Positions 6,142-29,485 of a stretch of DNA of 64,000 nt are shown piece by piece (positions within the stretch are counted from its first letter, which is position 1; each line of letters starts with the position of its first letter). The position numbers and the translations under genes were made by a program. A model generated the notes under the pieces. The model was not told the DNA's origin and did no database searches. It was given only the letters and a program-made list of their open reading frames with translations. The stretch covers positions 372,001 to 436,000 of the forward strand of contig NZ_JALHKS010000002.1 of the NCBI RefSeq assembly GCF_022968825.1, in the 5' to 3' direction. The DNA is from Chryseobacterium salipaludis. GTDB lineage: Bacteria > Bacteroidota > Bacteroidia > Flavobacteriales > Weeksellaceae.

Positions 6142-6149
6142 TACATTTG
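6142..6149 (+). promoter_or_regulatory. -7 promoter box (TACATTTG) for lysA leader transcript
   Basis: Exact TAnnTTTG match. Transcription would begin near 6155, about 20 bases before the small leader reading frame at 6175 and well before the terminator at 6281-6312. Confidence 0.6.
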
Positions 6150-6174
6150 TGCCGCAAATTTTATTAAAGTTTAA

Positions 6175-6252
6175 ATGAACCGCAGCTCAGCAGCTCCCAT
6201 GATCTCTCTGGCAGGAAAGAAATTTTCTTCCAAGAAACCTGGTGCGAACTAA
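6175..6252 (+). CDS. Putative lysine-rich leader peptide upstream of lysA
   Basis: An ATG-initiated frame of 25 codons ending in TAA, located between a promoter box and a strong terminator. The peptide has two Lys-Lys pairs (residues 15-16 and 20-21, each encoded AAG AAA) inside GKKFSSKKPGAN. Placed directly before the terminator that precedes the lysine-biosynthesis gene lysA, it has the layout of an amino-acid attenuation leader: ribosomes stalling at lysine codons when charged tRNA-Lys is scarce would favour readthrough. I did not find a convincing antiterminator pairing, so the regulatory role is a hypothesis. It could also be a chance frame. Confidence 0.45.
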   Translation: MNRSSAAPMISLAGKKFSSKKPGAN

Positions 6253-6280
6253 GGGCTGAATCTTCATATTGATATTTGAC

Positions 6281-6312
6281 GGGCAGGCTCTTGGTGAGTC
6301 TGCTCTTTTTTT
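6281..6312 (+). terminator. Intrinsic terminator/attenuator upstream of lysA
   Basis: A 10-bp stem (6281-6290 with 6296-6305, allowing two G-U pairs), a 5-base loop and a run of seven T at 6306-6312. It lies 18 bases before the lysA ATG and downstream of the TACATTTG promoter, so transcripts for lysA must pass it. It is too far from the exonuclease stop (170 bases) to be an ordinary terminator for that gene alone. Confidence 0.75.
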
Positions 6313-6330
6313 GTTTAAAAATTAAAATTA

Positions 6331-7530
6331 ATGACAAACAGCGATTTACTCAGCATTGCCGCACAGTACGGCACGCCCACTTATGTTTATGACACCGAAA
6401 GTATCCGTTTTCGTTATGAAAAACTGACGGGTGCTTTCAGTTCCGGTACCCGCTTTTTCTATGCCGCGAAGGCACTCACGAATATTAATATTTTAAAATA
6501 CATCCGCAGCCTGGGCGCGGGGTTGGACTGCGTTTCCGTGTATGAAGTGCAGCTCGGCCTGCGAGCCGGTTTTGAACCGGAAAATATTCTGTTTACACCC
6601 AATTGCGTGGATTTGCGCGAGATTGAAGAAGCCATGCAGCTGGGTGTTCATATTAACATCGATAATATTTCGCTGCTGGAGCAGTTCGGCACGCGCTACG
6701 GAAATTCGTATCCCATCTTCATTCGGATCAACCCGCATATTTATGCCGGCGGGAACCATAAAATATCGACGGGCCATATCGATTCCAAGTTTGGAATTTC
6801 CATCCACCAGCTGCGTCATATCGAGCGTGTGATGAAATCCACCGATCTACGCGTCGAAGGTTTACACATGCACACCGGTAGTGAGATTAAGGATGCGGAT
6901 GTGTTTCTGCAGGGGCTGGATATCATGTTTGAGTTGGCCGAACATTTCCCTGATTTAAAATACATCGATATGGGAAGTGGTTTTAAGGTTCCGTATCAAC
7001 CTGGCGACCTGGAAACGGATGTGGAAACCCTGGGCCGCAAAGTAGAAAAAGCAGTAAAAACTTTCCGGAAAGAATCCGGGCGCGACCTGCAGCTTTGGTT
7101 TGAGCCGGGCAAATACCTTGTAAGCGAAAGCGGAACTTTTTTGGTCAAAGCCAATGTCATCAAGCAAACCACAGCGACCGTGTTTGTCGGTATTAATTCA
7201 GGATTCAATCATTTGATTCGTCCCATGTTCTATGATTCGTACCACATCATTGAAAACCTGAGTAATCCTTCGGGCGCTGAACGGATTTATACCGTAGTAG
7301 GCAACATCTGCGAAACCGATACGTTTGCATGGGACCGCCGGCTGAATGAAGTGCGCGAAGGCGATATCCTGGCTTTCCGGAATGCGGGTGCTTACGGATT
7401 TGAAATGAGTTCCAATTTTAATTCACGGTTGCGGCCGGCGGAAGTCTTATTAACAGACGGTACGCCGCATCTCATTCGGAAGCGTGAGCAGCTGGAGGAC
7501 CTGTTGCGTAACCAGATTGAAGTGTTATAA
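6331..7530 (+). CDS. lysA: Diaminopimelate decarboxylase
   Basis: 399 residues, a fold-III PLP enzyme (alanine-racemase-like barrel plus beta domain). It converts meso-diaminopimelate to L-lysine, the last step of lysine synthesis. Visible features are the PLP-binding Lys47 in FFYAAKALTN, GLHMHTGSEI for phosphate/PLP contacts, the EPGKYLV motif, and the second-subunit active-site loop GNICETDTFAW with its conserved Cys. The length is typical for the family. The start at 6331 follows an A-rich leader directly after the terminator. The upstream small frame and terminator suggest lysine-dependent attenuation. It appears to be a single-gene transcript. Confidence 0.96.
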   Translation: MTNSDLLSIAAQYGTPTYVYDTESIRFRYEKLTGAFSSGTRFFYAAKALTNINILKYIRSLGAGLDCVSVYEVQLGLRAGFEPENILFTPNCVDLREIEEAMQLGVHINIDNISLLEQFGTRYGNSYPIFIRINPHIYAGGNHKISTGHIDSKFGISIHQLRHIERVMKSTDLRVEGLHMHTGSEIKDADVFLQGLDIMFELAEHFPDLKYIDMGSGFKVPYQPGDLETDVETLGRKVEKAVKTFRKESGRDLQLWFEPGKYLVSESGTFLVKANVIKQTTATVFVGINSGFNHLIRPMFYDSYHIIENLSNPSGAERIYTVVGNICETDTFAWDRRLNEVREGDILAFRNAGAYGFEMSSNFNSRLRPAEVLLTDGTPHLIRKREQLEDLLRNQIEVL

Positions 7531-29337: not shown

Positions 29338-29485
29338 AGCGGGGCGGTGGGATTCCTTTTCGCGAGCCGTCGCGCTTTCCGCTGTATCTCGCGGCAGCGC
29401 ACCAGCGCTGCCGCGAGGATGCCGCTGCAATCGCGGCTATCAGGACGTTCCCCGACTCTCTTCCCGGCCCTGCGCCTTTTAAACT
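29338..29485. repeat. GC-rich palindromic element between the two fumarase genes
   Basis: About 150 bases, much more GC-rich than its surroundings. The core is a perfect inverted repeat of 13-bp arms, CTCGCGGCAGCGC at 29388-29400 and its complement at 29405-29417, with a 4-base ACCA loop. The arms are flanked by related direct repeats TTCCGCTGTATC and TGCCGCTGCAATC. The layout resembles REP-like intergenic elements I associate with Chryseobacterium genomes; no second copy was noticed in this window, so dispersed-repeat status is inference. Confidence 0.6.

Follow-up and report, generated by a model that had tools for sequence, protein, structure and literature searches.

The window analysed here is a stretch of 64,000 nucleotides of the Chryseobacterium salipaludis genome (family Weeksellaceae). 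It contains lysA, whose product, diaminopimelate decarboxylase, makes lysine from diaminopimelate in the last step of lysine synthesis. The gene is located at 6331..7530 on the forward strand and was identified by TIGR01048 (375 bits, cut-off 298). All elements of the leader described below lie upstream of it on the same strand. A promoter-like box of the Bacteroidota-type form TAnnTTTG (TACATTTG, 6142..6149) is, as a sequence match, the putative promoter of a common leader-lysA transcript; it is accompanied by no good -33 element, the nearest TTG lying just 11 nt upstream. The box is followed by a leader peptide frame of 25 codons running from ATG to TAA (6175..6252; MNRSSAAPMISLAGKKFSSKKPGAN and stop), with homologous frames in 62 distinct leaders. 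This peptide contains four lysines, arranged in two Lys-Lys pairs that constitute the putative regulatory codons, Lys15-Lys16 (AAG AAA, 6217..6222) and Lys20-Lys21 (AAG AAA, 6232..6237). Between the frame and lysA is an intrinsic terminator (6281..6312) with a 10-bp stem (6281-6290/6296-6305), a 5-nt loop and a tail of seven T. An earlier note on this DNA had described the box, the 25-codon frame with its two Lys-Lys pairs, the 10-bp stem with its tail, and lysA, and all of these were confirmed at the coordinates given above.

A convincing antiterminator, which the earlier note had been unable to draw, exists at 6249-6257/6286-6294 and recurs in nearly every relative. Its 5' arm (CUAAGGGCU, 6249..6257) lies over the leader stop codon (UAA) and forms nine pairs, worth -13.5 to -14 kcal/mol, with the 3' arm (GGCUCUUGG, 6286..6294). 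The 3' arm draws on the loop of the terminator as well as on half of its 5' arm, and the terminator and antiterminator are therefore mutually exclusive. The terminator fold of the window has an energy of -17.5 kcal/mol (z -4.3), which was equalled by none of 200 shuffles. The antiterminator complementarity of the window is better than only about 95% of shuffles, and for this reason it is the relatives, not the window alone, that exclude chance.

Leaders were collected from the lysA loci of named genomes and of 148 genomes of the family Weeksellaceae. In total, 62 distinct leader versions were found directly upstream of lysA, distributed amongst Kaistella, Chryseobacterium, Epilithonimonas, Halpernia, Cloacibacterium and related lineages. 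Leaders of the Kaistella type (K-type) have the consensus M...SIKKVASKGKKFFSKxNSVD, those of the Chryseobacterium/Epilithonimonas type (C-type) read MQNFKQNKTGKKGAVKFSKVWNI, and the Cloacibacterium leader reads MNAILKIKSTSSKGKKYFSKAKKWSYSEELQ; a further divergent leader, MPTLSSKQIKISKKGIKPFSKDFVLS (L143), stands ahead of a lysA cut by the contig end. The leader of the window is among the most divergent of the 62; two lysines of its relatives, Lys8 and Lys13, have been lost from it. The ratio pN/pS is 0.53 among the K-type frames (n=17, that of the window included) and 0.29 among the C-type frames (n=42), compared with 0.9 to 2.4 in the other two reading frames, and none of 200 column shuffles of the alignments reached values as low as those observed. 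By this pattern of substitution the leader frame is a translated one that evolves as a protein. Lys15, Lys16 and Lys20 are present in all 17 K-type leaders, with codons alternating between AAA and AAG, and Lys5, Lys11, Lys12 and Lys19 in all 42 C-type leaders. In K-type leaders variation is far greater in the N-terminal portion and in the last five residues than at the lysines.

The terminator is conserved in the relatives by both folding and covariation. Compensatory changes in its stem were reached by none of 500 shuffles, and the stem is fully paired across the C-type group. Terminators in relatives were scored by folding; a simple stem scan finds just 17 of the 62, an under-count explained by the internal mismatch contained in Chryseobacterium stems. 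In nearly all relatives, the terminator 5' arm pairs best with the region of the leader stop codon. Mean duplex energy of the antiterminator is -11.6 kcal/mol against -7.7 kcal/mol with shuffled upstream sequence (standard deviation of the mean 0.3). Its pairs are retained in 88% and 94% of cells, whereas slid versions of the pairing reach no more than 69% and 54%. Column shuffling gave no significant covariation for the antiterminator pairing in relatives. This is expected of a 3' arm that is shared with the terminator and so has little freedom to change, but the covariation signal is still weak on its own.

The spacing between the lysine codons and the antiterminator is also retained. In the window 12 nt separate the end of the last Lys codon from the antiterminator core, and this gap measures 12-15 nt in 59 of the 61 leaders measured. 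The two exceptions in the gap scan, L051 and L089, have gaps of 17 and about 12 nt by duplex fold. The position of the leader stop codon is less fixed: in Cloacibacterium it has moved, leaving the arm inside the frame with a gap that is still 12 nt, and in L045 it lies past the arm with the Lys-to-arm gap retained. The footprint of a ribosome extends about 12 nt past the codon being read (PMC4833913). With a gap of 12-15 nt, the arm would therefore stay just clear of a ribosome at the last Lys codon and be covered by a ribosome at the stop codon. Stalling and masking are inferred from this geometry and from established attenuation theory (PMC1183508); termination in vivo and the response to lysine are likewise deduced parts of the attenuator model. 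Apart from the terminator, the consensus fold contains only one short helix, located within the frame, and no conserved 1:2 pause hairpin. Such hairpins are typical of trp and his leaders and are not universal in this class of attenuators.

Taken as a whole, the leader is in all likelihood a lysine-responsive, ribosome-mediated transcription attenuator of lysA that acts through the supply of lysyl-tRNA. One promoter upstream of the leader would serve both leader and lysA. When lysyl-tRNA is ample, the ribosome would reach the leader stop codon and cover the antiterminator 5' arm lying just after it; with the arm masked, the terminator (6281-6305 and its seven T) would fold and transcription would end before lysA. 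Under a shortage of lysyl-tRNA the ribosome would instead wait on the Lys-Lys codons, at least 12 nt upstream of the arm, and the free arm would pair with 6286-6294, breaking the terminator and allowing lysA to be transcribed. The amino acid presumed to be sensed fits the gene, as lysA produces lysine from diaminopimelate. Peptide-leader attenuation was also the reading of the earlier note, and it gains support from the conserved frame, Lys codons, box, terminator and antiterminator; the alignment of relatives that had been proposed there was run and did not refute it, the small frame and its Lys codons being conserved with synonymous variation. Some features run against a simple attenuator: the leader of the window has only four lysines, Chryseobacterium peptides are conserved at other residues too, which mere counting of codons would not require, and many relatives are without the element.

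Every one of the 62 leaders has the promoter box, 18-29 nt before its start codon, compared with 10 of 186 control blocks. No TAnnTTTG occurs between the leader stop codon and lysA in any of the 62, and 26 of 31 leaderless lysA genes have TAnnTTTG within 130 nt of their start. Since the box stands only before the leader and most leaderless genes have boxes of their own, lysA expression appears to require reading through the leader terminator. A covariance model of the element matches 93 of 197 genomes of the family, each of them once, a few of these being weak chance matches. The strong matches with known lysA position all lie 13-28 nt upstream of lysA, and the five matches located elsewhere are all weak (E 3e-4 to 9e-3). 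It is very unlikely in the light of these data that the frame is a separate gene for a small functional protein, with a terminator of its own, and that lysA is served by a separate promoter further downstream. The terminator does follow the frame, and the Chryseobacterium/Epilithonimonas peptide (GKKGAVKFSKVWN) is conserved beyond its lysines, as would suit such a protein; however, only 13-28 nt lie between the model match and lysA, none of the 62 leaders has the box between its stop codon and lysA, a conserved antiterminator would have no point, the N-terminal part varies freely in K-type leaders, and the element is found only before lysA.

The conservation of the C-type peptide extends to the silent sites of codons 19-22 (AAG GTT TGG AAT), which are identical in all 42 C-type leaders (e.g., L016 and L034). 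This exceeds the need of codon sensing and could reflect an additional role of the RNA or of the nascent peptide. Together with the GKK and FSK motifs, the invariance would be compatible with a sequence-specific arrest peptide, in which the nascent chain, and not a lack of lysyl-tRNA, halts the ribosome in response to lysine or another signal and then operates the same terminator/antiterminator switch. This is nevertheless a very unlikely account, as it is mainly the lysines that hold their position across lineages, the window, Cloacibacterium and L089 differ in the surrounding residues, and the quantity conserved is the spacing from Lys codon to arm.

The leader is not universal in the family. 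Of the genera singled out in the earlier note, it is conserved in Chryseobacterium and Kaistella, though not in all species, and is absent in Elizabethkingia; it is also missing from Riemerella and from some Kaistella, Chryseobacterium and Cloacibacterium relatives. In 20 genomes belonging to other families of the order, inspection by eye of the sequence ahead of lysA found no such element. On a LysA tree, itself weakly supported and with some labels taken from a crude motif rule, the distribution of the leader is patchy, with about 15 changes of which at least seven are forced.

Five Chryseobacterium loci without the leader (L043, L047, L052, L055 and L063) have a different conserved block ahead of lysA, TTGATTTTAAATTATAAACAATTTCT...TACCTTTG, which is perhaps the site of another regulator, and recurrent AACAAAATGTTATAT-like repeats, possibly an operator, are found upstream of lysA in L122, L124, L125, L127 and L136 from other families of the order. 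LysA of Edaphocola (Chitinophagaceae; L035 and L036) is 79% identical to that of the Weeksellaceae genome of the window, which suggests horizontal transfer. The genome of the window contains lysA, dapA and aspartate kinase; hisG is absent and there is no full-length ilvB match. Judged by this gene content, the organism is likely auxotrophic for histidine and branched-chain amino acids while retaining the path to lysine and diaminopimelate. The regions upstream of its dapA and lysC contain no such leader.

Control of lysine synthesis at the RNA level is usually ascribed to the L-box riboswitch. Scans with Rfam found no family that fits the leader region in the window and six relatives, and thus no other known leader class. 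The L-box (RF00168) has no match in the window at gathering or E<=1 and none in the six relatives at E<=0.5, and the T-box (RF00230) has none in the window or the six relatives. A hit to L20_leader in the window scored below half its gathering score and was rejected, as it was not repeated in relatives. Elsewhere in the window, Flavo-1 RNA (RF01705) was found at 29364-29442 on the reverse strand (55.2 bits, gathering score 42). Lysine genes of other bacteria are under L-box control (PMC12925634), and the leader could by analogy be a lysine-binding aptamer or a protein-controlled attenuator with a fortuitous frame; this is extremely improbable given that no Rfam family reaches threshold in the window region or the six relatives, that the only other helix of the consensus fold is short, and that the frame is under codon constraint.

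For the ribosome-mediated attenuator, the open-access literature yielded no earlier report of a leader peptide for lysine alone and none of an amino-acid attenuator in Bacteroidota; with the search confined to that literature, the claim of a first is provisional. A survey of Actinobacteria reports no RNA element for lysine and names only the L-box elsewhere (PMC1262725), and unvalidated frames in long 5' UTRs have been described in Bacteroides thetaiotaomicron (PMC7366714). The leader is probably the first attenuator for lysine alone and the first amino-acid attenuator in Bacteroidota, with its antiterminator placed on the leader stop codon, throttling lysA and sparing diaminopimelate for the cell wall. 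If so, a lysine leader peptide would fill a gap in the list of amino-acid attenuators, and transcription-translation coupling in Bacteroidota, with their unusual initiation signals, would be tight enough for a ribosome-timed switch. With control placed at the last step, lysA, a cell well supplied with lysine could reserve diaminopimelate for peptidoglycan. The leader would also provide a ready reporter of lysyl-tRNA charging in these bacteria.

Several known systems share part of this design. The L-box riboswitch (RF00168) likewise controls lysine biosynthesis at the RNA level, whereas the lysA leader has no match to its aptamer and would sense through the ribosome. SEP5 of Sinorhizobium (PMC10117765) is a frame with lysine codons that has been suggested as a possible leader; it differs in having six Thr and three Lys codons, in preceding an aspartate dehydrogenase gene, and in belonging to alphaproteobacteria. 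The tetQ leader of Bacteroides (reviewed in PMC5418344) is a ribosome-sensing leader of the same phylum, but it exerts translational control of a resistance gene by tetracycline, not transcriptional control by an amino acid. The ilvB-II leader of Corynebacterium (PMC10272879) is also a clade-restricted short frame with terminator and antiterminator, one per genome, before a pathway gene; it differs in responding to branched-chain amino acids, in its occurrence in Actinobacteria, and in its sequence and structure. Finally, the classical trp, his, thr, leu, ilv and phe attenuators of proteobacteria share the short reading frame that contains codons for the end product, the terminator, the mutually exclusive antiterminator and the biosynthetic gene. 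The lysA leader differs from these in its presumed sensing of lysine, its occurrence in Bacteroidota, its antiterminator arm on the stop codon and the lack of a detected conserved 1:2 pause hairpin. The mechanism is classical, and the amino acid, the gene and the phylum appear to be new.
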